A DNA stretch of 35,024 nucleotides from Verrucomicrobiota bacterium (GCA_023265515.1 JAHFSZ010000009.1:3541-38564); one strand, 5' to 3'; positions 1,553 through 34,329 are shown, counted from the first letter of the stretch. Program-made: numbers and translations. Notes: generated from the letters alone by a model not told the origin.

Positions 1553-1658
1553 GCGTTGAGCGTATGGCGTATAGCGGATAGGGCAGAACCGAATCCCAAA
1601 AAAAACAAAACAAATATGAGATGGAATTTCTATACGCTGCACGCTATCCGCTATCCGC
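1553..1658. repeat. Period-7 inverted repeat filling the guaB3-guaA gap
   Basis: The left arm, 1553-1580, has four consecutive heptads of type GCGTATA. The right arm, 1631-1658, has four of the reverse-complement type TATCCGC. On the transcribed strand 23 of 31 positions of the two arms can pair; the AGCG core of each heptad is kept and the three following bases vary. The 50-base loop is T-rich on the minus strand. The right arm ends one base before the guaB3 stop and the left arm ends two bases before the guaA ATG, so the element occupies the entire intergenic RNA and would include the guaA ribosome-binding region. Confidence 0.85.
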
Positions 1659-2819
1659 TCATTTGCCCATGCCAACACCCTGCACGGTCTGAAATAATTT
1701 TCCCTCCGACTTGATCGAAGGCGCGATGATGATTTCGGTCCTCTGCAGCTCGCGGATGGTGGAGGCGCCGACGCTGCCCATGCACGTCGTCAAGGCGCCC
1801 ATCAGGTTTTGCGAGCCGTCGTCGAGATTGGCGGGCCCGAAAAGGATCTGCTTGAGAGAGCCGGTGACTCCGACCTTGATTCGCGTTCCGCGCGGCAGGT
1901 TTGAGTGCGGCGTGGCCATGCCCCAGTGGAAGCCCTTGCCGGGGGCTTCCTGGGTGCGGGCGAACGCGGAGCCGATCATGACCGCGTCGGCGCCGCAGGC
2001 GAACGCCTTGCAGATGTCGCCGCCCTTGTTCATGCCGCCGTCGGTGATGATTGGAATGTATTTGCCGGTGCGCTTGTGGTGCTCGTCGCGCGCCGCGGCG
2101 CAGTCGGCGGTCGCCGTCACCTGCGGGACGCCGAGGCCGAGAACGCCGCGCGTGGTGCAGGCGGCGCCAGGACCGACGCCGATCAGCACTCCGGCCGGGC
2201 CGCAGGCCATCAGCTCAAGCGTGGCGGAGTAGGTGACCGTGTTGCCGATCACGACGGGGATTTTCATCTTGCTGCAGAAGTTGCCGATATCGAGCGTCTT
2301 GTATTCCTTGGAGAGGTGCCGCACCGTCGAAACCGTGGACTGAATGACGAAGATGTCGGCGCCGGCTTCCTGCGCGATCTTGCCGAAGCGCTCCGCGCGC
2401 TGGGGAATGGAGGAGACGACCGCGGGGACCTTGGCCGCCTTGATTTCGCGGATGCGCGCGGCGATCAGGTCCTCCTGGATCGGCTCGGTGTAAATCGACT
2501 GGAGGATCTGGGTCGCCTCCTCCTTGCTCGAGTTGGAGATGCGATCGAGGACTTCGGCGGGATTCTTGTAGCGCGTCTGGACGCCCTCGAGGTTGAGGAC
2601 CGCGATGCCGCCGAGCTTGCCCATCTCGATGGCGAAGGCGACGTCGACGACGCCGTCCATGGCCGAGGCGAGGATGGGGACTTTGAATTTCAGGTCGCCG
2701 ATCTGGAACGTCGTGTCGACCTCGTTGGGATTGATGGTGACGTCGCCGGGCACGAGCGCGATTTCGTCAAAGCCGTAGCAAATGCGTGCCTTCCGATTTC
2801 TTCCGATCCACATGCCCAT
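1659..2819 (-). CDS. guaB3: GuaB3-type IMP dehydrogenase (no CBS domains)
   Basis: The 386-residue protein is a TIM-barrel IMP dehydrogenase family member that would oxidise IMP to XMP with NAD+, feeding GuaA encoded next. The active-site loop GPGAACTTRG carries the catalytic Cys221. Phosphate-binding segments are at 259-262 (TDGG) and 277-283 (ADAVMIG). The sequence runs straight through the usual CBS insertion site, and the GFHWGM segment (about 296-301) is typical of the GuaB3 branch of actinobacteria and cyanobacteria rather than canonical 480-residue GuaB. The start is ATG 2819, with GGAGG ten bases upstream; a second ATG two codons later is less well spaced. It is likely co-transcribed with guaA. 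The absence of CBS domains implies no Bateman-type nucleotide feedback. Confidence 0.93.
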   Translation of the reverse strand: MGMWIGRNRKARICYGFDEIALVPGDVTINPNEVDTTFQIGDLKFKVPILASAMDGVVDVAFAIEMGKLGGIAVLNLEGVQTRYKNPAEVLDRISNSSKEEATQILQSIYTEPIQEDLIAARIREIKAAKVPAVVSSIPQRAERFGKIAQEAGADIFVIQSTVSTVRHLSKEYKTLDIGNFCSKMKIPVVIGNTVTYSATLELMACGPAGVLIGVGPGAACTTRGVLGLGVPQVTATADCAAARDEHHKRTGKYIPIITDGGMNKGGDICKAFACGADAVMIGSAFARTQEAPGKGFHWGMATPHSNLPRGTRIKVGVTGSLKQILFGPANLDDGSQNLMGALTTCMGSVGASTIRELQRTEIIIAPSIKSEGKLFQTVQGVGMGK

Positions 2820-2901
2820 AGGCTTGAATCCTCCGATAAAATTTTTGACCTCCAGAAACTTCCCAGGCTGCTGGAGAACAACCTATCGGTGGATCCGCGC
2901 T

Positions 2902-2918
2902 GGCAACGGTGAGTTGCC
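2902..2918. promoter_or_regulatory. Small hairpin in guaB3 leader region
   Basis: A perfect 6-bp stem (GGCAAC / GTTGCC) with a 5-base loop lies about 83 bases upstream of the guaB3 start. It could be part of the 5' leader. No known riboswitch consensus was recognised around it, so a role is only conjecture. Confidence 0.3.
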
Positions 2919-2986
2919 GGGCGTGGCCGGCCCCGATTAAAGAACATTTTAAAAAAAGCAGGCCGACACAAGATTAAAATTTCGAG

Positions 2987-3026
2987 TTCGTCAAAATGGA
3001 GGCGTTAATTGACCCATTTTGACGAA
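2987..3026. promoter_or_regulatory. 13-bp perfect inverted repeat upstream of guaB3 (possible operator)
   Basis: The arms TTCGTCAAAATGG (2987-2999) and its exact reverse complement (3014-3026) are separated by 14 bases. It is A/T-rich in its core and is not followed by a T-run in either direction, which argues against an intrinsic terminator. On the minus strand the downstream arm contains TTGACG, a -35-like hexamer, but only a weak -10 partner follows. It lies 168-207 bases before the guaB3 start and just next to a heptad element, so a regulator-binding site for guaB3-guaA is a reasonable guess. Confidence 0.45.
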
Positions 3027-3037
3027 AATGAGCACTC

Positions 3038-3107
3038 GCTATCGGCTTTCGGCTTTCCGCGTTCGGCTCTCCGCCGACTGCCGACGGCCTACAGCCGACC
3101 GCCCTCT
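3038..3107. repeat. Ten in-register heptads at the 3' end of the tonB-like gene
   Basis: Ten consecutive 7-base words fit the pattern GCNNNCN without a slip from 3038 to 3107. The left words contain TCGGC and the right words GCCGA, so the two halves are inverted around the short centre TCTCC (3068-3072) and could fold into a long imperfect hairpin. The array ends two bases from the stop codon of the tonB-like gene (3110-3112). Confidence 0.8.
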
Positions 3108-3109
3108 GA

Positions 3110-3844
3110 TTAGGGTTTGACCGATTTGAGCTCGACCGTCCATGAGACTCGCAGATGGCCCCACGTCAGGCGGTCGCCTGGTTGGCCGGAGGGAGTGAAG
3201 GAGATTTCGCGCGCCAGCTTGAGGCCAAGATCGTCGGTCGCGTCATCGCCGCAGGAGCGCTCAAGCACGGCCATGCGGACCGCGCCTGACGCGTCGACTC
3301 CGATCGAAATCTCGCTCGGAGTCAGGAGCTCGCCATGTGTCACTTTCGGAAATTCCGGCAGGGACAAGATTGGGCGGCTTTGCATTTCGCCGTAGAGGCT
3401 GACGATGCTGAGCTGTGGCGTTTCGGGCTGGGGGGGGACCGGGGTTTCGATGAGCAGAGCGGGATCCTGCTTCGACCAGCTGCCAGCACGGGTGGGTGAC
3501 ACGGTGCCGCTGGTCCGGAAATAGGGACGCTGGAACTGGTAGGGCGTCGTTTGGATCGAGAGATCGAATGTTGCCGGCGGGGCATCCGGCGTATTCAACA
3601 AATAGGCCTTCGAGTAACTTTTCTCGTTGGGCAGGACCATCAGCGTCGGATCAAAATAGGCGGACCAGCCCGAGGGATAGCGATCGGCGTCGGTCGAAAC
3701 GTCGAGCGACACTTGCAGGGGTTCGGTGGTCTTGCGGATTGCGATGTCGCCGTTGGCCGGGATGGATCGGTCGACAAAGGAATTTCCGATGAAGAGCACG
3801 ACAAAAAATACCAGGCCGGCCAGAAAGAAAGGCCATTTCGGCAT
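3110..3844 (-). CDS. TonB-like energy-transducing protein
   Basis: This 244-residue protein begins MPKWPFF with a single N-terminal membrane segment (about residues 4-20), then a periplasmic region with a Pro-rich linker (PVPPQPETP). The C-terminal domain (about 165-244), with SIGVDASGAVRMAVLERS and a closing beta strand LRVSWTVEL, resembles TonB C-terminal domains. It is the last gene after exbB and exbD, so it probably couples their proton motive force to outer-membrane transport. I chose ATG 3844, 16 bases after the exbD stop; a longer open frame reaches 3952 but would overlap exbD and place non-hydrophobic sequence before the membrane anchor. The family assignment is by pattern and context only. 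Confidence 0.6.
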   Translation of the reverse strand: MPKWPFFLAGLVFFVVLFIGNSFVDRSIPANGDIAIRKTTEPLQVSLDVSTDADRYPSGWSAYFDPTLMVLPNEKSYSKAYLLNTPDAPPATFDLSIQTTPYQFQRPYFRTSGTVSPTRAGSWSKQDPALLIETPVPPQPETPQLSIVSLYGEMQSRPILSLPEFPKVTHGELLTPSEISIGVDASGAVRMAVLERSCGDDATDDLGLKLAREISFTPSGQPGDRLTWGHLRVSWTVELKSVKP

Positions 3845-3860
3845 GCCCTGATCTTTGGCG

Positions 3861-4367
3861 TTAGTTGGCCTCGTGAGCAGGGGCAAGGGTTCCATCGGAG
3901 GGCGCCTCGGTTTTGGGCGGGTTCCTGGCGGCCGGCGAAGCCGCGGGAGCAAGCGAAGTGGCCAGAGTCACCTTCAAGTCCAATTCCCTCGAGGTCTGAA
4001 GAATCGAGACGAGCGTCTCGGTCGGCACGCCGCGGTCGATCTTGGCGATCAGGGAGTCGCCTGGGAAAGCCGCCTTCGCGTCGCTCAGGACCTGCCGGAG
4101 CTGATCGAGCGTGGTGAGCTGATCGTTGAAGAAGATCTTGTCGCCATCGGGGCGGTCCGAATCATGGCTGACGACGAGAATGAGCCGGCTTGGGGCGGAG
4201 CCCGCCGCCGCATCCCGTGTCGCAGGCAGGACAATCGGCTCACCGACCTGCAGGACGAAGAACGAGGAACAGAGCAAAAAGAAAAGCAGAAGGAGCAGGA
4301 TGACGTTCAAAAGCGGGATGAAATCCAGCTTGCCCGCGTAGTAGGAGCTGTAAGTCGCGAAGCGCAT
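3861..4367 (-). CDS. exbD: ExbD/TolR-family biopolymer transport protein
   Basis: The 168-residue protein has a short cytoplasmic N-terminus and one membrane helix that opens with the family signature L-D-F-I-P-L-L-N. The aspartate at residue 15 is the expected proton-carrying residue. A periplasmic alpha/beta domain (about 55-140) and a Pro/Ala-rich tail follow. ExbD works with ExbB as a proton-driven motor in the inner membrane that energises TonB. It starts nine bases after exbB and is followed within 16 bases by the tonB-like gene, so the three form one operon. Confidence 0.88.
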   Translation of the reverse strand: MRFATYSSYYAGKLDFIPLLNVILLLLLFFLLCSSFFVLQVGEPIVLPATRDAAAGSAPSRLILVVSHDSDRPDGDKIFFNDQLTTLDQLRQVLSDAKAAFPGDSLIAKIDRGVPTETLVSILQTSRELDLKVTLATSLAPAASPAARNPPKTEAPSDGTLAPAHEAN

Positions 4368-4376
4368 GGCAATGGC

Positions 4377-5027
4377 CTATGTCTCGGTAAGGTCAAACTC
4401 CGACCGGCGGCGGGAGCGCTCCTGTTCGGCGAAGAGGATGAGAATCTGGGTGGCGCAGAGCTCCATGTCGTTGATCATTTCGTCACGCCGCGAGATGAGG
4501 TAGTTGTAGCAAATGTAACCGGGGATCGCCGCCGCCAAACCGGCTGCCGTGCAGATCAGCGCCTGCCATACGCCGCTGGCGAGTGTCGTTGCGCTGACCA
4601 AACCGCCCTCCTTGGAGATTGCCAGAAACGCCGCGATCATTCCCATGACGGTGCCAAGCAGCCCCAGGAGCGGGGCGATTTGCGCGCACGAGGCGATGAA
4701 GAAAAGTTTCTTGTTGAGGCGGCGCATTTCCTGGATCACCACCACGTCGATCGCCTCCCGGATCTCGTCCCGGTTCCGGTCGTGGTTGATGATGGCCGCC
4801 CGGGCGACCTGGGCGACCGGACTGTGGGCCTCCTGTTCGCAAATCGTGATGGCCTCGGCATGGGCATTGGCCCGGATCCGTTTGGAGATCCCCAGCAAAA
4901 AATCGTGAATCTTGATCTGCGCCCGGTGGTAGTAATACCAGCGCTCCACGAAGGCCAGGAGGCCGAACAAAGCGACCAGGATGATGAGCCAGAGCACGGG
5001 TCCGCCAAGCTGTAAAGTCGTGAACAT
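4377..5027 (-). CDS. exbB: MotA/TolQ/ExbB proton channel protein
   Basis: The 216-residue product has three membrane segments (about 8-27, 110-135 and 150-178) with a cytoplasmic loop between the first two. The conserved APLLGLLGTVMGM motif (119-131) and the AAGLAAAIPGY helix are diagnostic of the MotA/TolQ/ExbB channel family. I prefer ATG 5027 because it gives the usual short N-terminus before the first helix; a TTG at 5048 would add seven residues. Neither start has a clear Shine-Dalgarno sequence. First gene of the exbB-exbD-tonB-like set, downstream of the HIT gene and separated from it by a heptad element. Confidence 0.9.
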   Translation of the reverse strand: MFTTLQLGGPVLWLIILVALFGLLAFVERWYYYHRAQIKIHDFLLGISKRIRANAHAEAITICEQEAHSPVAQVARAAIINHDRNRDEIREAIDVVVIQEMRRLNKKLFFIASCAQIAPLLGLLGTVMGMIAAFLAISKEGGLVSATTLASGVWQALICTAAGLAAAIPGYICYNYLISRRDEMINDMELCATQILILFAEQERSRRRSEFDLTET

Positions 5028-5142
5028 TCGATACCATGCATAGTTCAAAAGGCCATGAATCGCAAGGATTTATGGGGTTCCGAGTATGCCGCATTCACTA
5101 AAGAGGCTGGGGGCAAGGGTTTGCGGCCATTCTACTGTGTGT

Positions 5143-5239
5143 CGTTTACCGTTAACCGTTCACCGTTTACCGAAAGGATCGGAGGTGGGCCGGTTGCACC
5201 CATGTTTTGTGGTCAACGGTACACGGTGAACGGTGAACG
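5143..5239. repeat. Period-7 inverted repeat (CGTTNAC word) between HIT gene and exbB
   Basis: The left arm has four perfect-register heptads CGTTTAC, CGTTAAC, CGTTCAC, CGTTTAC (5143-5170). The right arm has GTCAACG, GTACACG, GTGAACG, GTGAACG (5212-5239). The arms are reverse complements apart from the variable position and enclose a loop of about 41 bases. It lies 10 bases downstream of the HIT stop on the transcribed strand. The same word is used by the element at 16681-16745. Confidence 0.85.
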
Positions 5240-5249
5240 TTGAAAAGGA

Positions 5250-5588
5250 TCACCCGGGAGGCCAGCTCAGGGCACGGCCCCCCAGGAGGTGAACATGCAA
5301 ATGGGGCACCGACTCTCCGCCATCCCGGCCGTTGTTGATGACAAGCCGGTAGCCAGAGCGGTCAATGCCGAGCTTCCGGGCGATCTCGGCCGCGGTGAGC
5401 AGAACGGTGCCGATCAGCCTCGCATCCTCGGCTGAAGCGTCATTGATCCGGGCAATCGGCTTTTTGGGGACCACGAGGATGTGGGTAGGAGCCTTGGGGT
5501 TGGTGTCGCGGAAGGCGATCACCTCGTCCGTTTCATAAACGATGTCGCCGGGAATTTCGCGAGAGATGATTTTGGCAAACACCGACAT
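5250..5588 (-). CDS. HIT-family (HINT/PKCI-like) nucleotide hydrolase
   Basis: This 112-residue protein is the size of bacterial Hint enzymes, which hydrolyse AMP-linked phosphoramidates. It starts MSVFAKIISREIP and contains FRDTNPKAPTH, VVPKKPI and the histidine triad HLHVHLLGG near the C-terminus (about 96-104), with the catalytic histidines in place. ATG 5588 gives the normal N-terminus. It lies 42 bases after the ATP-cone-like gene and probably shares a transcript with nrdR. Cytoplasmic; the physiological substrate cannot be read from the sequence. Confidence 0.93.
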   Translation of the reverse strand: MSVFAKIISREIPGDIVYETDEVIAFRDTNPKAPTHILVVPKKPIARINDASAEDARLIGTVLLTAAEIARKLGIDRSGYRLVINNGRDGGESVPHLHVHLLGGRALSWPPG

Positions 5589-5630
5589 TTCTTCAGCGTA
5601 GCCAGCTTACTTGGAGGCGTAAAGTCTGAA

Positions 5631-6182
5631 CTAACTCACGCTGAGCCGGACCCCATCCATCGCCCTCCGGCCAAGCGTCTCCCGGATAAAGTCCACGATC
5701 TCGTCGTTGATCAGCCGGCAGCGGTTCCGCCAGCGCTGGTGGCCGGCGAGAAACTTGACGCAGCGCCTCAGGCCGATGAAAACATACGATTCGGAGCCGT
5801 TGCTCGAGGCCTTTTGGATATGGTCGCGAAGAATGTCGTAGAAGCGCAGCTCGAAGCCGTAGCCCGCCCTTTGGGCAAGCTGGTAAAGATCGCAAACCGC
5901 CTCGGATGCGTTTCCGGCCATTGGCGAGGGCGCGGCAAAATGGGTGAGCAGCTCGCGGGAGAGGTCGATGAAATCCTGAAGGGTCACGGTTTCCTTCTTC
6001 ATCTCATGGCGGATGTAGTGGGCGATCGAATTGACGATCTGCTCGACCATCCAAGGCTCGAGTTTCGAGCCGAGTGAATCGTTCTGGCCTGCGATCTCGC
6101 AGACCAACTGGCTCAGGTCCAGCGGTTCAACCCGGCCATCCGGGTAACACATCAAGAGGGCATGCTCGTTAAGTCGGATCAT
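5631..6182 (-). CDS. ATP-cone-like protein of unknown function next to nrdR
   Basis: The 183-residue protein is not a family I can name. Its N-terminal half follows the ATP-cone pattern: YPDGRVEPLDLSQL (about 13-26), then two helices ending in VTLQDFIDLSREL, the layout of the regulatory cone of ribonucleotide reductases and NrdR. The C-terminal half (about 90-183) is mostly charged helices with a patch HQRWRNRCR. A good Shine-Dalgarno sequence, AAGGA, stands seven bases before ATG 6182. It starts 27 bases after nrdR, so the two are probably co-expressed. A nucleotide-sensing role is inference from pattern and position. Confidence 0.7.
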   Translation of the reverse strand: MIRLNEHALLMCYPDGRVEPLDLSQLVCEIAGQNDSLGSKLEPWMVEQIVNSIAHYIRHEMKKETVTLQDFIDLSRELLTHFAAPSPMAGNASEAVCDLYQLAQRAGYGFELRFYDILRDHIQKASSNGSESYVFIGLRRCVKFLAGHQRWRNRCRLINDEIVDFIRETLGRRAMDGVRLSVS

Positions 6183-6209
6183 TTGAATATCCTTGGTTGA
6201 ATGGGTTGC

Positions 6210-6665: not shown

Positions 6666-6679
6666 TGCGTGTTTGTTAT

Positions 6680-6717
6680 ACCTGTAGTGTTAGGTCAAAG
6701 GTTTACCCGCTACAGGT
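6680..6717. promoter_or_regulatory. 8-bp inverted repeat just upstream of nrdR
   Basis: ACCTGTAG (6680-6687) and its exact reverse complement CTACAGGT (6710-6717) flank a 22-base spacer, starting 15 bases before the nrdR ATG. One further G-T pair and one G-C pair extend the stem. It could be a leader hairpin or an operator. It lacks the A/T-rich centre of known NrdR boxes. Confidence 0.35.
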
Positions 6718-6832
6718 GGGAGTGTCAATCCGGAATTCGGTTTCTGTAAGTCTCTTCACGTCAGGGAGATGGGTCGAAAGAAAAAATTAACGTGAACAGA
6801 GGATCGTTCGAAAAAAAACAGAAAATGATTTT

Positions 6833-7033: not shown

Positions 7034-7035
7034 GA

Positions 7036-9693
<2,658 letters not shown>

Positions 9694-9722: not shown

Positions 9723-9765
9723 CGAATCGCGACGCGCCATGCCCCGAATCACGAACCGTCACCGG
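9723..9765. repeat. Single-arm degenerate heptad array at the nuclease gene 3' end
   Basis: Words of the type CGAATCR repeat with period 7: CGAATCG, CGACGCG, CCATGCC, then a one-base slip, CGAATCA, CGAACCG, TCACCGG. The array runs through the stop codon (9759-9761) of the nuclease gene. No inverted partner was found nearby. It is more degenerate than the other heptad elements, hence lower confidence. Confidence 0.5.
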
Positions 9766-10667
9766 GCGCAGAGCTGCCGGTAGAAGCAATTCCGGCACTT
9801 CCAAAGGTCTTCGGTCATCGGGAAGGCGTTGATATCCGCCTGGTTGCGGGCCGTGTCGACCAGCCTCGGGGTGATGTCATCGAAGTAGCGGCGGATGGAA
9901 GCCTCAAGCCGTTCGATCTTTTCGGGAGCGAGGCAGTTTGCACCGATGGTGTTGTCGCGCAGATAGACGGGGTAACCGAGCATCTGTTCGATGGGCACGC
10001 CCCACTTGCGGCCCGCGAAGAGGGCATAGCCGGCCAGCTGATCCTCGACGCTGTCGTCGGTCCCGCCGGTCTTCCAGTCGATCAGGTGGAGCTTTTCACC
10101 ATCGTGCCAGGCCAGGTCGATCTTGATGAAGAGCAGTTTGCCGTCGAAGACGAACTCCTCAAGTTTCTCGACGGTTCGGATCTGCTCCGCCGGCGAGGCG
10201 AGGATTTTTTGGGTCAGGTCGAGCTCGTAAAAATTCCGGATGATCTGGTAAGCTTCGTCACGCCATCGCTCGCAGGTTTCGCGGTCGGGTTCCGGGCCGT
10301 AAAAATGCTCGTAGAGGTTGTGGAAGTTTTTCGGGGATTGTTCCCAGCGCTTCTCGCGGCTTTCGCGCCAGGCCTGCCGCAGGCGGTCGCGGAGGCTGGT
10401 CAGGCTTTGCTCGACCACCGGGAGCGGCCGGCCTCGTTGGTGCGTGTCAAACACCTGCTCGATGACGTGATGGATCAGCTCGCCAACCAGCATCGGCAGG
10501 TTTTTCATCTTGTTGAAAACGTAAGACTGCCAGGCTTCCGGCGTGGCGCGCGCCCGGTCCCAGCCACCCCACGAGCCGTAGGCGCGCCAATAAAATTCCC
10601 GCGCGCATTTCGAGAGAGACATGGCCCGCGATTTGGACCAACTGAGCCTGTTGACGAGTTCAGCCAT
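9759..10667 (-). CDS. PD-(D/E)XK nuclease with Cas4/AddB-type Fe-S cysteines
   Basis: The 302-residue protein has the RecB/Cas4 nuclease layout. It starts with LSWSKSRAMSLSKC (Cys21). A helix GELIHHVIE (62-70) supplies His66/His67. The metal site is IKIDLAWHDG (Asp184) followed by LIDWKTG (Asp197, Lys199), and then a Q-L-x-x-Y helix. Three cysteines at the C-terminus (Cys291, Cys294, Cys300), together with Cys21, match the 1+3 cysteine pattern that binds a 4Fe-4S cluster in Cas4 and AddB. It has no helicase domain and there is no CRISPR array or cas gene nearby, so a DNA-repair exonuclease role is more likely. A GAGAGA sequence precedes ATG 10667. Confidence 0.85.
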   Translation of the reverse strand: MAELVNRLSWSKSRAMSLSKCAREFYWRAYGSWGGWDRARATPEAWQSYVFNKMKNLPMLVGELIHHVIEQVFDTHQRGRPLPVVEQSLTSLRDRLRQAWRESREKRWEQSPKNFHNLYEHFYGPEPDRETCERWRDEAYQIIRNFYELDLTQKILASPAEQIRTVEKLEEFVFDGKLLFIKIDLAWHDGEKLHLIDWKTGGTDDSVEDQLAGYALFAGRKWGVPIEQMLGYPVYLRDNTIGANCLAPEKIERLEASIRRYFDDITPRLVDTARNQADINAFPMTEDLWKCRNCFYRQLCAR

Positions 10668-10677: not shown

Positions 10678-10765
10678 AGTCAGAACTCAGGAATCAGAAT
10701 AACACCCGGCGCTTCGCGCCGGCACTCATGATTCTGAAGTCTGGGTTCTGGGTTCTGAATTCTGC
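10678..10765. repeat. Period-7 inverted repeat (TTCTGAN word) with nested GC hairpin, between ispH and nuclease gene
   Basis: The left arm has three heptads AGTCAGA, ACTCAGG, AATCAGA (10678-10698). The right arm has five: ATTCTGA, AGTCTGG, GTTCTGG, GTTCTGA, ATTCTGC (10731-10765). The arms are inverted (TCAGA against TCTGA). The loop contains a perfect 7-bp hairpin CCGGCGC/GCGCCGG with a 3-base loop (10706-10722). The right arm ends two bases from the ispH stop and the left arm starts 10 bases before the nuclease ATG. No T-run follows the GC hairpin. Confidence 0.85.
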
Positions 10766-10767: not shown

Positions 10768-11997
10768 TTAGTTGTACCCGAGCACGTCCTTGACCGAGAA
10801 GCCGCGCAGTTCCAGCAGGCGTGTGATGGACTGTTCGATCAGGTTGTTGGGACAGGAGGCGCCGGCGGTGATGCCAACGACGACTTCGCCCTCAGGGAGC
10901 CAGTTTTCGGTCTCGATCTCCTTTTGCTCGCGGTACTTGAAATGGATGATCTTTTTGTCGGATACCATCTTGCTCGAATCGCGGATGAAGTAGGTCGGCA
11001 GGACGGCCTCGCCCATCTCGGCGAGGTGGGCCGTGTTCGAGCTGTTGTAGCCGCCGACGACAATCAGGAGATTCGGCGGCTGCATCAGGAGTTTCTGCAG
11101 GGCGTCCTGGCGGTCCTGCGTCGCGCCGCAAATCGTGTCAAAGACCCGGAAATTTTCCCGGCATCCCGCCTCGCCGTCGCGGTCCAGGATGGCCTTGCGC
11201 AGGCGTCGCTGGACCTCCTCGGTCTCGCCGCGCATCATGGTGGTCTGATTGGCGACTCCGATCGCCTTCAGATGGATGTCGGGATCGAAACCAGGCGACA
11301 TGGAGCCTTCGAACCGCCCAAGGAATTCCTCCTTGCTGCCGCCGCGCCGGATATAGTCGCAAACATAATCGGTGTCTTCGAGCGTCAGGATGACGAGATA
11401 GTGGCCTCCGTTTTCGTAAGAGGCGCGGGAACTGGTGGCCTTGGTCTCCTCGTGCTTGGCCTTGCCGTGGATGATGCTGGTGACGCCTTCGCGGGCGTAC
11501 TGGCGTACTCGCTTCCAGACGCTCATCACGTCGCCGCAGGTGGTGTCGACCGTCTGGCAGCCGATGCGGGTGAGTTGCTCCATGACCTTCACCTCGGCGC
11601 CGAACGCAGGAACGATCACAATGTCGTTGGCCGTCACGTCCTCGATGTTGGCAACCTTGTTGGGGCCGGTGATGGTTTGGATGCCCATGGCCCTGATCTG
11701 CTCGTTGACCTCGGGGTTGTGGATGATTTCGCCGATGATGTATTTTTTCTTGTCCTTGAAAACCTTCGCGGCCGCGTAGGCAAGATCGATGGCGCGTTCG
11801 ACCCCGTAGCAAAAGCCGAATTCCTTGGCCAGTTTGACGGTCAGGTTGCCGGCCTTGAGGATGTTTCCATTGGCGCGGAGGTAGTCCACCAACTCACTTC
11901 GGTAGTGGGTTTCCACCTGGGCATGGACCTGCTCCATGATGTCGGGGCGTCTCAGGTTCACCCGTTCGGGCTTTGGTGTCAGTATTTCAGCACTCAT
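10768..11997 (-). CDS. ispH: 4-hydroxy-3-methylbut-2-enyl diphosphate reductase
   Basis: IspH (LytB) is the last enzyme of the MEP pathway and makes IPP and DMAPP. The 409-residue protein is the long, cyanobacterial/plant-like form rather than the ~310-residue E. coli form, with about 50 extra N-terminal residues and internal additions. The three cysteines that hold the 4Fe-4S cluster are present: Cys63 in FGFCYGV, Cys154 in DTTCGDV and Cys290 in DTICGATQ. IHNP (92-95) and the final AGASCPNN segment are also conserved. It faces the hpnD-hpnE gene across a 174-base divergent region, so precursor supply and squalene formation sit side by side. Confidence 0.95.
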   Translation of the reverse strand: MSAEILTPKPERVNLRRPDIMEQVHAQVETHYRSELVDYLRANGNILKAGNLTVKLAKEFGFCYGVERAIDLAYAAAKVFKDKKKYIIGEIIHNPEVNEQIRAMGIQTITGPNKVANIEDVTANDIVIVPAFGAEVKVMEQLTRIGCQTVDTTCGDVMSVWKRVRQYAREGVTSIIHGKAKHEETKATSSRASYENGGHYLVILTLEDTDYVCDYIRRGGSKEEFLGRFEGSMSPGFDPDIHLKAIGVANQTTMMRGETEEVQRRLRKAILDRDGEAGCRENFRVFDTICGATQDRQDALQKLLMQPPNLLIVVGGYNSSNTAHLAEMGEAVLPTYFIRDSSKMVSDKKIIHFKYREQKEIETENWLPEGEVVVGITAGASCPNNLIEQSITRLLELRGFSVKDVLGYN

Positions 11998-16680: not shown

Positions 16681-16745
16681 CGTTTACCGTTTACCGTTCA
16701 CTGTTTACCGTGGTCGCGGGTTCGGTAAACGGTACACGGTTCACG
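16681..16745. repeat. Period-7 inverted repeat (CGTTNAC word) overlapping the yyaL-type stop codon
   Basis: The left arm is CGTTTAC, CGTTTAC, CGTTCAC, TGTTTAC (16681-16708). The right arm is GTAAACG, GTACACG, GTTCACG (16725-16745). The stop codon of the thioredoxin-domain gene (16741-16743) lies inside the last right-arm heptad, and the array seems to run on into the final codons. The word is the same as in the element at 5143-5239. Confidence 0.85.
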
Positions 16746-18978
16746 GTTCGCCGCCGGAGGATGACGCTTTTTTGGGCGAAAGAGGTCGAAGGAGCTCGTC
16801 CAGTTTCTTTGCGTCGAAAGTAGGCAGTTTGCACGCGAAATTTTCACAAACATAAGCCGCCGGCTTTCCGCCGATCGGTTTCAGGGTCCCGAGGAACGGC
16901 TGGATTTTGGAGAGGGCGGGGCGGGCTTCCTCGTCGACGACGATCAGTGTCTTGAACGGAATGAACCTTCGGTTCACGACGCGCAGAAGCTCCCGCGTCT
17001 GCGGCGATTGGCGGTCGCCGGCGATGATGATCTGGGCAGGCTTCTCGAGCCAATAGAAGTAGGCCGCGACCATCTCAGGAAGAATGAATGGGCCTTGGAT
17101 CAAGCGCCCGGCGAAGAGCCCAAACGTTTTTTCCGCCATGGCGCGGAGCTCCTCGCGTCCGGTCAGATGCGAGAGCCGGATCAAATTGAGCAATGCAACG
17201 GAATTGCCGGAAGGTTCGGCATTGTCCGTGTCGTCTTTCAGCCGGACCAGTTGATGCTCCTTGTCCTCCGGCGTCATAAAAAAGCCGCCATTCGCCGAAT
17301 CGTAAAAGAGTCTCGTCTGCGTTTCGTTGAGGTCGATCGCCCATGCCAGCCAGTGGGGATCGAAGGTCGCCTCATAAAGGTCGAGCAGGCCTTGGATCAG
17401 AAAGGCGTAGTCGGTCTGGAAGCTCTGACGGTCCGACTCCCCATCCCGCCACCTGTGCCGGAGTTGCCTGGTTTTTGGATCGTAGAGTTTGGCTTCAATA
17501 AACTTTGCGGCGCGCGCCCCGGCCTGCGCGAGCGCCGGGTCGTCGAGCGCCTGCGATGCCCGGGCGAAGGCGGAGATCATCAGGCCGTTCCATGAGGTCA
17601 GGATCTTGTCATCGAGATGGGGGTGGACCCGCCTGGCCCGAACCTCGAAAAGCTTTTGCGCGCTTTCGCCGAGGATTTCCGAGATTTGCCCGGCGGTTTT
17701 TTTGTGTTTTTGCGCGATTTCCGGAAGCGACGACGTCTGGTGCAGGATGTTGGCCCCGTGGCCGCCTGCTGCCGAGGCGGGAAAGTCCTCGAAATTGCCG
17801 TGCTCCGTGACCCCGAAGTAGTCGTCGAAGATGGCCGCCTTCTCCGGACCAAGGATCTGATCGATTTCATGCTTGCTCCAGACATAAAACTTTCCCTCGA
17901 CGCCCTCGCTGTCCGCGTCCTCCGCGGAATAAAAGCCGCCGTCCGGATGCGTCATTTCGCGCTTCACGTAATCGAGCGTCTCCCGGGCCACCCCAGAAAA
18001 GAAATCATCGCCGGTCAACTGATGGGCTTCGACGAGCGCCACAACGAGCTGGGCATTGTCATAAAGCATTTTCTCGAAATGGGGCACGAGCCACCGTTCA
18101 TCGACTGAATAACGCGCGAAGCCGCCGCCCAGCTGGTCGTAGATGCCTCCGCGCGCGATCTGCCGGAGCGTGTGTGTTGTCATGGCGAGCGTCTCGGACT
18201 TGCCGGTCTTGGCAAAGCGCCGTGTCAGAAAATAAAAGACCGCGGGGCGCGGAAATTTAGGCGCGCCCCCGAAGCCGCCGTGCACCCGGTCATAACTGCC
18301 GGCAAAATGTGATTCGCACTTCTGGAACACTTCCGGAGTCAGCAGCGCGTTCCCCGCGGGGATCGCCGCATAGCCGCGGATGGCATTGGTCAGCTGGTCG
18401 GCCGACTTTTCCAGCTCCTCCGGTTTCTCCGTCCAGATTTGGTGGATGCGCTCGAGCAGCTCGATCCAGCTTGATCGCCCGTAGCCCGCCTTCGGCGGAA
18501 AGTAAGTGCCGCCATAAAACGGCTTTAAGTCGGGCGTCAAAAAAACGTTCAACGGCCAGCCGCCGCCGCCTGTCATCGCCTGGACAGCCGTCATGTAAGT
18601 GGCATCGACGTCGGGCATCTCTTCCCGGTCAACCTTGATGTTCACAAAATACTTGTTCATCAGCGCGGCCGTTTTGGGATCCTCGAACGACTCGCGCTCC
18701 ATTACATGGCACCAGTGGCAAGTCGAGTAGCCGATGCTCACCAGGATCGGTTTTTTCTCCCGGCGCGCCTTCTCGAATGCCTCCGCTCCCCACGGGTACC
18801 AGTCCACCGGATTGTGCGCGTGCTGGAGCAGGTAGGGGCTTTTTTCACGGGCGAGGCGGTTGGCGGTGTGTCGGCTTGAATCAGGGCTGCTCATCATTCT
18901 CCATGCTCCGGCGGCGGCCAAAACGACAATGATTACGGTAAAAAACCAAGCCCATCGCTGGATTTGTTTTCGGGTCAT
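16741..18978 (-). CDS. Membrane-anchored YyaL/SSP411-type thioredoxin-domain protein
   Basis: The 745-residue protein has an N-terminal membrane anchor (about residues 8-26), which most YyaL proteins lack. A DUF255 thioredoxin-like domain follows: [17 protein letters not shown], then [11 protein letters not shown] with Cys87-x-x-Cys90, and [13 protein letters not shown]. The remainder is an (alpha/alpha)6-barrel-like region resembling N-acylglucosamine 2-epimerase-type folds, with [14 protein letters not shown] and [12 protein letters not shown]. The family is widespread (SPATA20 in animals), with an unsettled function. The anchor suggests it faces the periplasm. ATG 18978 was chosen; a GTG at 18990 adds four residues. 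The last codons overlap a heptad repeat. Confidence 0.88.
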
Positions 18979-28781: not shown

Positions 28782-28807
28782 CAGGTTTCCGAACGACGAG
28801 TTTAATC

Positions 28808-28837: not shown

Positions 28838-28884
28838 AACTGTATTGTCCGAAATGGGCAAATAATGCATCTCCGATTCGAATT

Positions 28885-28913
28885 TTGACAATTGAGCGGA
28901 CCTGGAACAAAAT
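28885..28913 (+). promoter_or_regulatory. Possible promoter of the glycoside hydrolase gene
   Basis: A perfect TTGACA (28885-28890), a 17-base spacer and CAAAAT (28908-28913, 4 of 6) face away from the operon promoter. A start site about seven bases on would leave almost no leader before the TTG at 28922, which counts against it. Confidence 0.22.
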
Positions 28914-28921
28914 GAGGAATC

Positions 28922-30322
28922 TTGAACCGGGCCGGACTATTTGCATTTCTCATTGTTGCAATTTCCCCGCAAAGCCTTTGGGCCCAAGAGGGTGCCTTGC
29001 CCAAGGTCGAAGCCCGGCGGACACCGCAAGCGCAGTGGAGTTTTTATCCGACGCGGACCGTCCATCAGCTTCCTGGTTTTACGCCGGTCGCAGCCGATCC
29101 CGCGCGCCTGGACAAATACGGCGGGCTGGCGTCGCAGAAGACGGTCGCCACGGGTTTTTTTTACGTGAGGAAGGCGCAGGATCGATGGTGGCTGGTCGAT
29201 CCGGAGGGTTGCCCATTCCTGCATGTGGCGGTCGTGGCCGTGTCTCCGGGGAAAACCCGTGCCAACCGCGACGCGCTCGAGCAGAAATTTGGGACGGAGG
29301 AGAAATGGGCGCAAGCCACCACGAAAATGCTCAGGGACCATGGCTTCAACGGCTCTGGCGCATGGTCCGACGCTGAGCTGATCCGCAAGTCGCCGACTCC
29401 CCTGGTTTACACGCTCCTGTGGGATTTCATGAGCGGCTACGGCCAACAACGCGGGGGCACCTACCAGAAGCCTGGCAATACGGGCTACCCGAACGACACC
29501 ATTTTCGTTTTCGATCCGAAATTCGAGGCCTACTGCGATGAGCGTGCCCGTGAACTGGCGAAGACGAAGGACGATCCGTATCTGCTCGGGCATTTCTCGG
29601 ACAACGAGATGCCGTTTCCCTCCGATGCCCTGAGGAAATATCTCGAACTCAACAAGGACGACCCCGGCTGCAAGGCCGCGAGGGAGTGGCTCGAAAAACG
29701 GAAGGGCCTGGCCGCCAAGACCGGGGAGGTCAACAGCAAGGACTGCCAGGAGTTTCTCACCTACATGGCGGCCCGGTATTTCGACATCACGTCCAAGGCA
29801 ATTAAGAAATATGATCCCAACCATCTTTTCTTCGGATCGCGCTTTCACGGCCGGGACCTCGACGACCAGAACCTGTTCAAGGGCGCGGGGCCTTACTTGG
29901 ACGCGGTTGCGGTCAACTACTACAATGAATGGACGCCGCAACCGTGGCGGCTCAAGAACTGGGAGAAATGGTCCGGCAAGCCCGTGATCATCACCGAGTG
30001 GTACGTGAAGGGCGCGGACGCAGGCTTGCCGAACAATTCCGGCGCCGGCTGGATCGTGAAGACTCAGCAGGACCGCGGGCTGTTTTACCAGAATTTCGCG
30101 CTCGGCCTCTTGCAATCCAAGGTCTGCGTCGGCTGGCATTGGTTCAAGTACATGGATAACGATCCTTCCGACATGACAACAGACCCTTCCAATCGGGACT
30201 CCAACAAGGGAATCGTCACGATACGCTACGACGAGTACAAGCCGTTGCTCGACGCGATGAAAGAACTCAACGAGCAGGCGTATGCGCTCGTCGACTACTT
30301 TGACAAAAACCCGCAGCGGTAA
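28922..30322 (+). CDS. Exported GH-A-clan glycoside hydrolase (agarase/GH50-like)
   Basis: The 466-residue product starts with TTG, preceded by GAGGA, and has a clean signal peptide (FAFLIVAI, cleavage likely after SLWAQ). No in-frame ATG could replace it. RWWLVDPEGCPFLHVAVV (about 88-105) is common in GH50-like and related agarase-type enzymes. The TIM barrel carries the two catalytic glutamates expected for clan GH-A: Glu229 after Asn228 in HFSDNEMPF, and Glu359 in VIITEWYVKG. VNYYNEW and VGWHWFKYMD fit the sugar-binding face. It likely cleaves a beta-linked polysaccharide outside the cell or in the periplasm; the substrate is not readable. It ends three bases from the convergent stop. Confidence 0.75.
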   Translation: MNRAGLFAFLIVAISPQSLWAQEGALPKVEARRTPQAQWSFYPTRTVHQLPGFTPVAADPARLDKYGGLASQKTVATGFFYVRKAQDRWWLVDPEGCPFLHVAVVAVSPGKTRANRDALEQKFGTEEKWAQATTKMLRDHGFNGSGAWSDAELIRKSPTPLVYTLLWDFMSGYGQQRGGTYQKPGNTGYPNDTIFVFDPKFEAYCDERARELAKTKDDPYLLGHFSDNEMPFPSDALRKYLELNKDDPGCKAAREWLEKRKGLAAKTGEVNSKDCQEFLTYMAARYFDITSKAIKKYDPNHLFFGSRFHGRDLDDQNLFKGAGPYLDAVAVNYYNEWTPQPWRLKNWEKWSGKPVIITEWYVKGADAGLPNNSGAGWIVKTQQDRGLFYQNFALGLLQSKVCVGWHWFKYMDNDPSDMTTDPSNRDSNKGIVTIRYDEYKPLLDAMKELNEQAYALVDYFDKNPQR

Positions 30323-30325
30323 GCC

Positions 30326-30736
30326 TCAGGCAATTTCTCTTCTTATCCTCGGCAACAACCAATGCAGGAGGATCAACACCGCATAGCTTGCCGATCCCTG
30401 CCCGCCGAAAATCAAAAGGAACGCCAGTAGAACATCGCGAGAAAAGGGAATCCGGCTTTTGCCGGCGAAGGCGATCCAGAAACCCAAAAGTTCAGCCAGC
30501 AGAAGCAATGCGAGCGGGGCGACCAGCAGTTTGCATTTCGCCCAAAAACCCGCCTCCCTCCACAGCCAAAAAATGAGGCCCGCGAAAAGAGGCGGAAGCA
30601 CGCAGAGGACAGTCTTTGTAAGCGGGAAGGCAAAAGCGGCAGCGGCAGCGCTCAAGCAGAGCAACAGAAGAATTGAGATCCTGTTGGTTTGGATCACGCG
30701 CACCGCGGCGCGCCTCTTGTCGTTCAAAGAATCCAT
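30326..30736 (-). CDS. Small four-helix membrane protein of unknown function
   Basis: The 136-residue protein has about four hydrophobic segments (roughly 20-38, 42-58, 68-90 and 103-127), a basic N-terminus (NDKRRAAVR) and a basic C-terminus (PRIRREIA). No family is recognised. It begins 50 bases after the FecR-domain gene and may be co-transcribed with it. It ends three bases from the hydrolase gene stop. Confidence 0.65.
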   Translation of the reverse strand: MDSLNDKRRAAVRVIQTNRISILLLLCLSAAAAAFAFPLTKTVLCVLPPLFAGLIFWLWREAGFWAKCKLLVAPLALLLLAELLGFWIAFAGKSRIPFSRDVLLAFLLIFGGQGSASYAVLILLHWLLPRIRREIA

Positions 30737-30786
30737 GGATGCCTTGCTGTTGTCCCTAGGGCACCCGGCGCTGACGGACGCGCACT

Positions 30787-31650
30787 CTATTTGCCCGGAC
30801 CGCCGCCCTGAGGCAGTGGCGCAGGAGGAGGATTGGAATCGTGCTGGTTTCGCTGGGCCTCAATGGCTGATTCGGCACCGGAGTCGGTGACATAATGAAG
30901 GCCCTGTCCATCTCCGGTGATGGTGAGCTTGCCGGAGGTGAGCAATTTCTGCTGGGCGTCGATCGCGTCCTGAATCAACTGCTCGCTGCCGAGGGGGCCC
31001 TTGAACGACTTGAGCATCGTGGAGGTTCCGACAAGGCGCTTCAGGTCGATCGTTGTGGGCGGAGAGATGCCCTGGCCCGGCGTGTAAATGCAAAGCTGGC
31101 CCGGCTGAAGCGTCTCAGTCTGCCCCTGGAAGCTCAGCATCGACGTCCCCTCCAGGTCGATCAGTTTTACCGAACCGTCTTGCAGCACCGAAAACATGAT
31201 GGTCGTGCCCAGCACGGCTGCGGTGGCGGTCGGGCTGGTGACCGTCGCCCCGCCATTGCCCTTGGGAGTGTGCAGAAGAATGAACCCCGAGGAGAGATGA
31301 ACGTTGCGGCTGTCGGGTCTAAAAGTAAAAATACTGTTTGCGCCGAGGCGCGCGATTGTGTTGTCGTTAAAGCGCAGTTCGGCGCGCGACTCCTTGCCTG
31401 TTGTGAGCAGGCGGCCGCCACGGATCAGATCGCCAACCGCCGCGGGCCGCGTCGGCGCCTTGGTGGGATCGCGGTAGGGGGAAGGATCCGGGCCTGCCGT
31501 GGGGCCGGCCGCGGGACTTTCCTCTTGGAGACGCACGTCATGGCGGATTTCCGTCACCTTCGCGTTCCGAAGCAACTCGGGCGCCGCCATCAACGGGAAT
31601 GCGGCCAGGAAAACCCCCGCCATCGCAAGTGATAAGGTTTCTCTTTTCAT
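30787..31650 (-). CDS. Exported FecR-domain protein
   Basis: From ATG 31650 the protein has 287 residues and a signal peptide (SLAMAGVFLAAF, cleavage likely after LMAA). The central FecR domain (about 70-190) shows GDLIRGGRLLTTGKESRAEL, then FNDNTIARLGANSIF, and VLGTTIMFSVLQDGSVKLIDLEG. The C-terminus is Pro/Gly-rich (PPPAPLPQGGGPGK). No sigma factor or TonB receptor gene accompanies it, so it is more likely a periplasmic scaffold or sensor than a classical FecR. The longer frame to 31818 has no signal features at its start and reaches into the divergent gene. Confidence 0.85.
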   Translation of the reverse strand: MKRETLSLAMAGVFLAAFPLMAAPELLRNAKVTEIRHDVRLQEESPAAGPTAGPDPSPYRDPTKAPTRPAAVGDLIRGGRLLTTGKESRAELRFNDNTIARLGANSIFTFRPDSRNVHLSSGFILLHTPKGNGGATVTSPTATAAVLGTTIMFSVLQDGSVKLIDLEGTSMLSFQGQTETLQPGQLCIYTPGQGISPPTTIDLKRLVGTSTMLKSFKGPLGSEQLIQDAIDAQQKLLTSGKLTITGDGQGLHYVTDSGAESAIEAQRNQHDSNPPPAPLPQGGGPGK

Positions 31651-31709
31651 CCGTTTGCAGTTAGATTCCTCTCCATAGTAGGAAAACAACATCGTCCGGG
31701 AAAGGGAAA

Positions 31710-32078
31710 ATGTCAAATAATTTGGACTCGACCATTGATACGGCGGGCTTGCTTCACTTCCGCCACCACATTTTTCTCTGCGCCGATCAAACCAAACCCA
31801 ATTGCAGCCCGCGCGCAAAAAGCCTCGAATCCTGGGAATTTCTCAAAAGGCGGTTGAAGGAGCTCGAACTGTCTGGCCCGAACAAACTCGTTTACCGGAC
31901 CAAGGCGAACTGCCTGCAGATTTGCGCGCGCGGTCCGATCGCTGTGGTTTATCCGGAGGGCGTCTGGTACCACTCCTGCACTCCGGAAGCGCTCGAGCGC
32001 ATCATCCACGAGCATTTGATCGGAGGCCGCATCGTGAAGGAGTTTGTTTTCGCGGAACACCCGCTGAAGCCCGCATAA
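31710..32078 (+). CDS. Thioredoxin-like [2Fe-2S] ferredoxin
   Basis: The 122-residue protein has the cysteine spacing of thioredoxin-like [2Fe-2S] ferredoxins: Cys24 and Cys32 in [11 protein letters not shown], and Cys68 and Cys72 in [22 protein letters not shown] and the final helix [10 protein letters not shown] complete the fold. Family members carry electrons to oxidoreductases. A purine-rich AAAGGGAAA precedes ATG 31710. The gene stands alone between divergent fecR and convergent MgtC-type genes, so its partner is unknown. Confidence 0.9.
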
Positions 32079-32101
32079 GCCTTCCCGGATCAAAAATTGT
32101 T

Positions 32102-33346
32102 TCAGCCGGCGACCAGCCATCCGATTCCAAAAAGTGCGATGGCGATGAAGATCGTGTTCACCATCGCGCTCATCCTTCCTCGGGTGATGAGCGCCACCAT
32201 GCCGCCCTTGAGGATCGTGTTGACGATGGCGACGATCACGAGGGCCTTTGCCGCCACGTCGAGGGAAAGGTCGACGCTCGCCATGCGCGAGATCGACAGC
32301 GTGATGGCATCCACGTCGCTGAGCCCTGAAAGCCCGGCCAGCACCAGGATGCCGGAATTGCCGAACCAGACCCGTGCGGCCTTCGACAGCAGAAGAATGA
32401 ACGCGAGAAGGGCGCCGAACTGGATCGCCTTGGTCAGCTCGAGAGGGTTCTTGAGCAGCAATTCACCGGGGGTGGATTGGCTTTTGCTTTTTCTCCAAAG
32501 CCATGCCGAGCCCAGATAGCCGATCGCGCTCATGACCATCATCGGCGCCGCGACATGCTTGAGCAGCGCGGGATGAATCACACCGATGATGACCAGCATG
32601 CGCGGGAACATCGTGGCGCTGGCGATGGCCACGCCGGAGGCGAGAAGTGGATGCAGAGCGGAGTTGTGCCGGCCAAGGCGGGAAAGGTTCAGCGTCAGCG
32701 CAGTCGAGGAGGCCAGGCCGCCGAATACACCGGTCAGGCCGATTCCGTGGCGCGGGCCGGCGATCTTGATGGCGAAGTACCCGAGAAAGGAAATGCTGGC
32801 GATCAGCACCACCATCCACCAGATTTCGTAGGGATTGAGGACGTTCCACGGATCGATGGTTCGGTTGGGCAGGACAGGCAGGAGGACGACCGAGATGAGA
32901 AGCAGTTTGAACACGGCGTGGATTTCCTGGGGCTTGAGTCGCTCGACCCACGTGTTGAGGATCGGTTTGAGGCCGAGGAGGATGGTGATGACCACCGCCG
33001 CCGCCGCGGCTGGCGCCATGTAGCCGCGCACCGCCATCGCCCCAAGGGCGAAAGTGGCAAACGCGGCCACCATCGTGGTGACACCGTAGGATCGAGTGCC
33101 TGTCGCGGAGACGAAATGGGCTGTTGCCATCAGGATTGCGAACGCCAGAAACGCGAATCCGAGCAGGACGGTGCCGAGTTCGTTGGCAAGCAGGGCCCAG
33201 AGGCCGCCGAGCAGGCCGATGACACCGAAGGTCCGGACACCGGCCGGACGGCTTCCGCGTTCCGCGGCGCGATCATGCCAGCCGCGCTCGGCGCCGATCA
33301 GGAGGCCGATCATCAACGCGACGCCCAATCGCTCAAGAGTTTCCAT
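32102..33346 (-). CDS. MgtC/SapB-type membrane protein with DUF4010
   Basis: The 414-residue integral membrane protein has about 11-12 hydrophobic segments. The N-terminal part has the MgtC/SapB signature GLLIGAERGWHDR (about 14-26) and VRTFGVIGLLGGLWAL. The C-terminal region is DUF4010-like, with GLTGVFGGLASSTALTLNLSR and LAGLSGLSDVDAITLSIS, the second repeating the theme of the first. Function in this family is unclear; magnesium or stress adaptation is assumed from MgtC. It ends 23 bases from the convergent ferredoxin gene. The 219 bases upstream of it hold nothing I can identify. Confidence 0.88.
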   Translation of the reverse strand: METLERLGVALMIGLLIGAERGWHDRAAERGSRPAGVRTFGVIGLLGGLWALLANELGTVLLGFAFLAFAILMATAHFVSATGTRSYGVTTMVAAFATFALGAMAVRGYMAPAAAAAVVITILLGLKPILNTWVERLKPQEIHAVFKLLLISVVLLPVLPNRTIDPWNVLNPYEIWWMVVLIASISFLGYFAIKIAGPRHGIGLTGVFGGLASSTALTLNLSRLGRHNSALHPLLASGVAIASATMFPRMLVIIGVIHPALLKHVAAPMMVMSAIGYLGSAWLWRKSKSQSTPGELLLKNPLELTKAIQFGALLAFILLLSKAARVWFGNSGILVLAGLSGLSDVDAITLSISRMASVDLSLDVAAKALVIVAIVNTILKGGMVALITRGRMSAMVNTIFIAIALFGIGWLVAG

Positions 33347-33565
33347 GGATGGATCCGGCCCAGGTCAGGCGACTGCACCGGGGTCGATGAATGAGGGGTG
33401 CAAGACCAATATCGCTTAGATGCAGGAATTGCGCAATCGGATGGCCGGTCGGATCACTTCTCCAGCGTCCGGAAGCTTTGTCCGCGCGCGGCCAGCCCAT
33501 AGGCTTCGGATGTGCATGTGGCCGGGAGGAGAATCGCACAGCTCAGAGCGAGTTTCATGCGCACA

Positions 33566-33862
33566 TCACCGCGCTTTGGCCGCGTCCCACTTCGGCCCGT
33601 GCTTCACATCCTCTTTTTTAGTCCGCCGCAGTTCTTCCTTGAATTCAAACTTGGCGTTCTTTTCGGTCCATTCAGGCTTGGCGTCGTCGCCGGAAGTGAT
33701 CGCCTGCACGGGGCAGGTCTCGCGGCACGCGTCGCAGTCGATGCATTCGGCTGGGTTGATGTAAATCTGGTCCGGGCCTTCATAGAAACAGCTGACCGGG
33801 CAGACCTCGACGCAGTCGCCGTATTTGCAATTCACGCAAGTTTCATGAACGACGTAAGACAT
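33566..33862 (-). CDS. fdxA: FdxA-type seven-iron ferredoxin
   Basis: The 98-residue protein has the nine-cysteine pattern of Azotobacter ferredoxin I: Cys9, 12, 17, 21, 25, 40, 43, 46 and 50, within [17 protein letters not shown] and [16 protein letters not shown]. This pattern binds one 3Fe-4S and one 4Fe-4S cluster. A Lys/Glu-rich tail follows. The Shine-Dalgarno sequence AAAGGA stands before ATG 33862, which is preferred over a frame extending to 33901. It is a soluble electron carrier; no redox partner gene adjoins it. Confidence 0.95.
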
Positions 33863-33947
33863 GGGGATTCCTTTCAGTGAAGTATTACGAAGAACCTTCA
33901 AAATCTAGGTGATCGCGGCGCCAAAAGCAAGGACAGGCCTCCATAAC

Positions 33948-34274
33948 CTAGATGCGATCGACCTTCGCGGCGAAGATGAAATCGCTCTCCGTGAGCCCAT
34001 CGATTTTATGGGTCCAAATCGTCAGCCGCACCTTGCCCCATGCCAGATGAATATCGGGATGGTGACCCTCCGCTTCAGCGAGCTCGCCGACCTTGTTGGT
34101 GTAGTCGAGCGCCTCGCGGAAGTTCTTGAACCTGTACTCCTTCTCAAGGTGATGCTCGCCGACGGTCTTCCAGTCGCCGCCCAGCTTTTCCAGCAGCGCG
34201 GCCAACTCGCCTCCTTTCAGCGGGGGAATGCCGCCCTTGCACGGGACGCATTTCTTTTCGGCAAGGCTGCTCAT
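33948..34274 (-). CDS. Pterin-4a-carbinolamine dehydratase
   Basis: The 108-residue protein is the usual size. It starts with the K-K-C-V-P-C-K-G-G segment often seen in bacterial members, and has the active-site region EGHHPDIHLAW (His71, His72, Pro73) followed by THKIDGLTESDF (His89, Asp98). It dehydrates 4a-hydroxytetrahydropterin formed by aromatic amino acid hydroxylases. No hydroxylase gene is in the window, so its use here may be in other pterin or cofactor salvage. Confidence 0.94.
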   Translation of the reverse strand: MSSLAEKKCVPCKGGIPPLKGGELAALLEKLGGDWKTVGEHHLEKEYRFKNFREALDYTNKVGELAEAEGHHPDIHLAWGKVRLTIWTHKIDGLTESDFIFAAKVDRI

Positions 34275-34294
34275 GCGGCCATTTTCTTTTTTCT

Positions 34295-34329
34295 CAATTC
34301 CAAGTTCAAGGTTTTAAATTCTGGAATCT
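34295..34329. repeat. Short heptad array at the 3' end of the SGETK copy-2 gene
   Basis: AATTCCA, AGTTCAA, GGTTTTA, AATTCTG, GAATCTA (34296-34330) run in period 7 up to and into the stop codon (34328-34330). ATTCCA and TGGAAT at the ends are complementary. The word resembles the TTCTGAN type of the element at 10678-10765. It is short and degenerate. Confidence 0.5.

Follow-up and report, generated by a model that had tools for sequence, protein, structure and literature searches.

Heptamer repeats in bacterial genomes have been noticed for decades and have been ascribed to polymerase slippage or, in Xanthomonas, to G-quadruplexes. The Xanthomonas repeats (in Xcc and Xac) are built from GGGAATC/GGGANTN heptads in which five positions are conserved and two vary, and arrays range from 2 to 26 units, four units being the commonest number (PMC4692102). 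Each genome carries 70–75 convergent inverted pairs. The repeats are 89–93% intergenic, lie closer to the preceding gene, and are rare between divergent genes; the authors linked the unit number of four to G-quadruplexes, which need four G-tracts (PMC4692102). The cyanobacterial STRR/LTRR and the TAACTGA repeats are also intergenic heptanucleotide words, arranged as direct, variable-number repeats that can supply stop codons, and the repeats in a Beggiatoaceae genome lie mostly just ahead of start codons, with one inverted case in 170 (PMC4679880).

Two further systems share parts of this arrangement. REPINs are extragenic inverted doublets with a variable spacer, accompanied by singles, in which the hairpin is kept by compensatory changes (PMC3116915). 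On plasmid pSM19035, ParB/Omega occupies parS with one dimer per 7-bp repeat, and at least four contiguous repeats are required for full activity (PMC9499535).

Here, we describe heptad elements in a draft genome of a Verrucomicrobiota bacterium (GCA_023265515.1), beginning from a single stretch of 35,024 nt (JAHFSZ010000009.1:3541-38564, referred to below as the window). A preliminary description of this window had pointed to seven intergenic sites built from degenerate 7-base words, with different words at different sites but one architecture.

Sample and analysis

The host draft genome comprises 2.2 Mb in 103 contigs and is 88.5% complete. We analyzed 1,186,700 bases of sequence, window included (~54% of one MAG), in which a simple home-made codon-usage caller identified 1,053 genes (91% coding). 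The period test was an ungapped lag score of ≥14, with second-order Markov shuffles as the control. Because word classes drifted in an iterative weight-matrix scan (class I, for example, became the reverse complement of class E), strict templates were used for the tests of polarity and pairing. For class C, a loose template returned 393 matches, which is noise, and it was replaced by a stricter template.

A period of seven across the genome

The period-7 observation is confirmed as real, period-specific, and genome-wide. The host sample contains 127 lag-7 segments versus none in the shuffles, so the first refutation test set in the preliminary description, a lack of genome-wide excess, came out in its favor. 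At the same score, lags 5, 8, 10, 11, and 13 gave 0–5 segments each; multiples of three gave 5–17, as is usual for coding sequence, and the 49 segments at lag 14 are an echo of lag 7.

The sampled ~54% of the genome holds 71 two-arm elements and 84 single arms. These fall into at least eight word classes (defined from the same data on which they were counted), each with about five of seven positions fixed and two or three free: A, NNCAGAA; B, CGTKNAC; C, AGCGKNN (AGCGNNN in the window); D, GGCNNTC; E, ATTTCTN; F, CGTGNNT; G, TCGAANN; and H, GTTTNAN. GGG is absent from every class consensus word. By eye, some classes (TTCTGAA, GTNNAC) are partly self-complementary and others are not. Each class is common to some 10–46 arms at many loci in the sampled genome, so it was inexact to call the words locus-specific, although the idea of one architecture written in several words is supported genome-wide. 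Local clustering of single classes was looked for and is absent (3 of 24 neighbors, versus 3.7 expected).

Elements in the window

Five of the seven sites originally proposed (1553–1658, 3038–3107, 5143–5239, 10678–10765, and 16681–16745) are clear two-arm elements, whereas the other two (9723–9765 and 34295–34329) match at lag 7 in 56–57% of positions over a short stretch, below the calling threshold. The inverted arms reported at five sites are correct within the window. All seven sites adjoin or overlap the stop codon of a gene on the minus strand, as described; the choice of strand reflects the fact that most window genes lie there, and both strands are used genome-wide. The words stood as described, with the register refined to AGCGNNN, GGCNNTC, CGTKNAC, and NNCAGAA.

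Element 1 has a class C left arm (1552–1581; four AGCGNNN units plus AG), a unique spacer (1582–1629) for which copies were looked for elsewhere and none found, and an inverted class C right arm (1630–1659; CT plus four NNNCGCT units). Its right arm touches the stop codon of the gene at 1659–2819 (−), and the gene at 3–1550 (−) starts at the other end. In element 2, the class D arms (left, 3037–3071, GGCNNTC; right, inverted, 3073–3103, GANNGCC) are separated by a spacer of only ~4 nt, and the right arm lies 6 nt from the stop codon of the gene at 3110–3895 (−). Element 3 belongs to class B (left arm 5143–5172, four CGTKNAC units plus CG; inverted right arm 5212–5239) and ends 10 nt from the stop codon of a HIT-family gene (5250–5588, −). 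The left arm of element 4 (10678–10702; class A, NNCAGAA) is degenerate, and the inverted right arm (10728–10765; four to five TTCTGNN units) lies 2 nt from the stop codon of a LytB/IspH gene (10768–11961, −); the spacer contains a strong hairpin, CCGGCGC-TTC-GCGCCGG (10703–10722). Element 5 is again of class B (left arm 16681–16710, four CGTKNAC units plus CG; inverted right arm 16723–16752), and its right arm encodes the last codons and stop (GAA CCG TGA) of a DUF255/DsbH gene (16741–18897, −).

The two weak stretches, neither significant alone, have 20 of 36 (9723–9765) and 16 of 28 (34295–34329) lag-7 matches and overlap the stop codons of the genes at 9759–10667 (−) and 34328–34756 (−), respectively. 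They may be decayed elements or single arms.

Arm anatomy and pair polarity

Measured without word templates, arm length has a median of 31 nt (IQR 29–33, n = 161), equivalent to four heptads plus 2–4 bases, and weight matrices count exactly four heptads in 154 of 226 arms. The outer flank of the arms has no consensus; on the inner side, 2–5 bases are conserved as a partial fifth unit. Pairs have the layout word, spacer, reverse complement, with one polarity per class (58 of 60 strict pairs, none reversed). Spacers range from 4 to >100 nt, with a median near 30, and are unrelated to each other. All 92 class B heptads have G or T at position 4, and most other fixed positions are 95–99% constant. 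Fixed and free positions distributed in this way resemble those of a recognition sequence, in which some bases are contacted and others are not.

As a separate observation, one class A array runs to ~12 heptads (L041, 935–1018), an unusual departure from four units in this genome.

At the free positions, neighboring heptads are about as alike as non-neighbors within the same arm, and are slightly to moderately more alike than heptads of other arms (0.46 vs. 0.45 in class B, 0.54 vs. 0.53 in E, and 0.53 vs. 0.41 in A). Given that neighbors are hardly more alike than heptads from other loci, the arrays are not the product of recent slippage. More generally, replication slippage would account for the elements if a 7-nt unit suits the polymerase and repeats accumulate where they are least harmful. 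Period 7 does dominate in unrelated phyla too: lag 7 again leads in a set of 80 named loci (1.26 Mb) drawn from many phyla, with 15 segments versus 0–5. According to Mrazek 2007 (cited in PMC4679880), heptamers are also the commonest repeats of 5–11 nt in most genomes, and other genomes of the phylum contain long homogeneous heptad tracts. However, slippage predicts variable copy number and neighbor similarity, neither of which is seen here, and is thus already strained; the unit number is constant at four, inverted pairing of fixed polarity is obligatory, and the same word class recurs at many unlinked loci. We consider this explanation improbable.

Arms avoid pairing with each other

In the one genome on which this result rests, complementarity between the arms of an element falls below expectation: free-position identity between opposed heptads is 0.412, versus 0.490 ± 0.017 after within-class shuffling of right arms, and all 2,000 shuffles lie above the real value. 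Identical opposed heptads number 14 versus 28.6 ± 4.3 expected (none of 40 in class B and one of 56 in class C), and on folding, real elements are less stable than their arm-swapped counterparts by 3.6 kcal/mol, with the difference in this direction for 46 of 55. Because an element's own arms are less complementary than swapped arms, hairpin stability appears to be avoided rather than selected. The effect is present in the GC-richer classes A, B, C, and F and absent in the AT-rich E and H, as expected if the avoided property is hairpin stability. Loss of perfect inverted repeats during assembly would hardly explain the effect, because even by chance nearly perfect arms are rare (~1/58, run ≥21). 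The same-order genome G002 gave three pairs, one of them 26/28 complementary. Avoidance of arm pairing provides a clean statistical test that is applicable to published genomes.

These results bear on two explanations that involve folding. In the first, the element functions, as RNA or single-stranded DNA, in the form of a hairpin whose stem is interrupted by a mismatch in almost all of its 7-bp modules, and a structure-specific protein recognizes this form. Matches are most strongly depleted at offset 0, in register, which suggests that the arms are physically opposed. One or more mismatches are present in 218 of 232 opposed heptads, and the five class B heptads with agreeing free positions all have a mismatch at a normally fixed position instead (p = 0.018). 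However, such a stem needs no tandem identical words, the effect is missing from classes E and H, and a spacer of 4 to >100 nt fits poorly with it. We regard this reading as quite unlikely.

The second possibility is that the elements form RNA stem-loops at transcript ends, serving as terminators, mRNA stabilizers, or attenuators; the preliminary description had raised the question of whether the arms form transcript ends. The position just past stop codons, the inverted arms, and the strong hairpin in some spacers (10703–10722 in the window) all suit such a role. Against it, T-runs are not enriched (seven of 54 spacers and one of 54 sequences after the element, vs. 11% in controls), arm complementarity is below chance, elements often sit within co-directional gaps only 4–8 nt ahead of the next start codon, and the window contains no match to an Rfam family. 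Among the readings weighed here this is the least probable. The pattern of an intrinsic terminator, a stable hairpin followed by a T-run, is missing.

Position relative to genes

Nearly all of the two-arm elements are intergenic (68 of 71). Between co-directional genes, the element starts a median of 1 nt past the stop codon, and 87% start within 12 nt; where there is room of ≥30 nt on one side, 15 lie nearer the stop and two nearer the start (p = 0.001). Elements are depleted between divergent genes, which hold four of 62 elements versus 27% of intergenic sequence (p = 4e-5). The bias toward 3′ gene ends seen in the window holds across the sampled genome, and the second refutation test of the preliminary description, a lack of this bias, likewise came out in its favor.

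When whole elements are removed, the residual gaps have a median of 10 nt, versus 26 nt for element-free co-directional gaps. Entry of whole units into existing junctions fits these observations, because the residual gaps are of usual size and a stop codon can be provided by an arm. Only 17.8% of 966 genes are preceded by a Shine-Dalgarno-like tetramer, about the frequency expected from base composition, and translation starts therefore seem largely Shine-Dalgarno-independent. This may be the reason that elements can sit so close to start codons.

The main rival to the explanation that we prefer (see below) is a REPIN-like selfish element, in which a putative transposase recognizes the arms and spreads them as inverted doublets, with singles as doublet remnants. 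Several features are those expected of such elements: dispersed extragenic doublets of fixed polarity together with singles, variable spacers, several families per genome, words that are genome-specific within one order, and whole units in operon junctions. REPINs have been described with this doublet layout, spacer, and singles, but their changes are compensatory (PMC3116915) and those in the arms here are anti-compensatory. A single Y1 transposase gene (PF01797) was detected in the genome, and its flanks carry classic GTAG-type palindromic REPs instead of heptads. Furthermore, no two spacers share ancestry, which is unexpected for recent copies when arms are ~97% fixed, and a search for autonomous versions, in which widely separated arms would enclose a gene, gave no convincing case. 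We consider a REPIN-like origin unlikely, albeit less so than the folding-based readings. Target-site duplications were looked for at the elements and none was found, and copies of spacers elsewhere in the sampled sequence do not exceed chance-length matches. Miniature elements of the MITE type were ruled out for want of a target-site duplication or a shared interior.

The Y1 (RAYT) gene itself lies at ~4960–5480 of L044 (G000:C24), between inverted GTAG-type REP palindromes (TGTAGCGGCGATCTCC...). Ordinary REPs therefore coexist with the heptad elements.

Words and layout in other genomes

Facing arms occur in several of the 80 named loci (e.g., L136 from Opitutus, and L110). In G002, the word is CGCGGAA, which is absent from the host; 20 of 23 arms have four units, and the pairs have the same polarity in three of three cases. 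Class E of the host is absent from all five same-order genomes. Together, these data indicate that words change within the order and the layout stays.

Elsewhere in the phylum, long arrays (L229, L240, L234, and L241) switch word gradually or abruptly with the register kept, for example, from GTCAGAA to GTCAGTG and from CAATGAC to CAGAAGC. In-register switches of this kind show a way in which new words might arise.

A proposed mechanism

The best explanation we can offer, which we hold tentatively and at somewhat short of an even chance, is that the elements are protein-read arrays of four heptads facing each other at gene ends. We favor protein-read arrays because arm length, four units, and polarity are constant and positions are specifically constrained, and because neighboring heptads are hardly alike, pairing is avoided, and placement is at gene ends. 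A trans-acting protein would bind each ~30-bp arm cooperatively, probably with one subunit or dimer per heptad, and the two facing arms would together seed a single symmetrical complex spanning a neutral spacer. Whole units, or single arms, would have entered existing gene junctions and would be maintained by selection for the words, with the arm–arm hairpin a side effect that is selected against. Such a complex could have an effect on expression or on chromosome organization. By analogy, plasmid parS arrays may serve as a working model for how the arms could be read.

Some observations count against protein reading. At least eight word classes would need either several proteins or one permissive protein, and no expanded family of small DNA-binding proteins or paralogues that could read the words is obvious among the sampled proteins. 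The RHH_1 domain (PF01402), a short one, has no match in the genome (a MAG of 88.5% completeness). In addition, the reduced pairing does not extend to classes E and H.

A broader version is that "four heptads facing four heptads" is a sequence-independent layout in distant bacteria, written in lineage-specific words but constant in copy number, polarity, and placement at gene ends because diversifying DNA-binding proteins of one family read it with one subunit to each heptad, such that the Xanthomonas GGGAATC repeat would be one dialect and not a quadruplex device. We see this as possible but somewhat more doubtful than protein reading in the host alone.

Comparison with known systems

A single intron locus also has degenerate heptads on two opposing arms, but there the arms pair as a hairpin, whereas the elements described here are dispersed and avoid pairing. 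The pSM19035 parS sites share contiguous 7-bp repeats, four or more in number, in an arrangement that is direct or inverted; they comprise six sites on one plasmid, beside par and copy-control genes, in contrast to the >100 chromosomal sites here. Like REPINs (REP-BIMEs), the heptad elements are dispersed extragenic doublets of fixed polarity with a less conserved spacer, and there are singles in addition. However, REPIN arms have a palindromic core, are RAYT-linked, and change in a compensatory manner, and those of the host are tandem heptads, not RAYT-linked, and anti-compensatory.

The preliminary description had named the STRR/LTRR repeats as the nearest analogue. The likeness lies in intergenic heptanucleotide words, which in STRR/LTRR/TAACTGA repeats are at times split by related words. 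The constant four units, the inverted pairs, and the lack of a slippage signature do not fit a simple repeat of this type, and the Xanthomonas GGGAATC repeats (PMC4692102) are closer.

The Xanthomonas repeat is the closest known case and the sole reported match of the layout: about five fixed and two free positions, four units, convergent pairs, intergenic 3′ gene ends, and few elements between divergent genes. The differences are that Xanthomonas uses one G-rich word and the single host genome has eight or more, all free of G-runs, and that here copy number is tighter and the arms avoid pairing. Because the same number and layout occur without G-tracts, quadruplex DNA is not the general reason for the layout. 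A four-unit, inverted, gene-end arrangement in many non-quadruplex words argues against both slippage and G-quadruplexes as a general cause, and points instead to a common recognition machinery or to a class of dispersed element for which we found no name in the literature searched.
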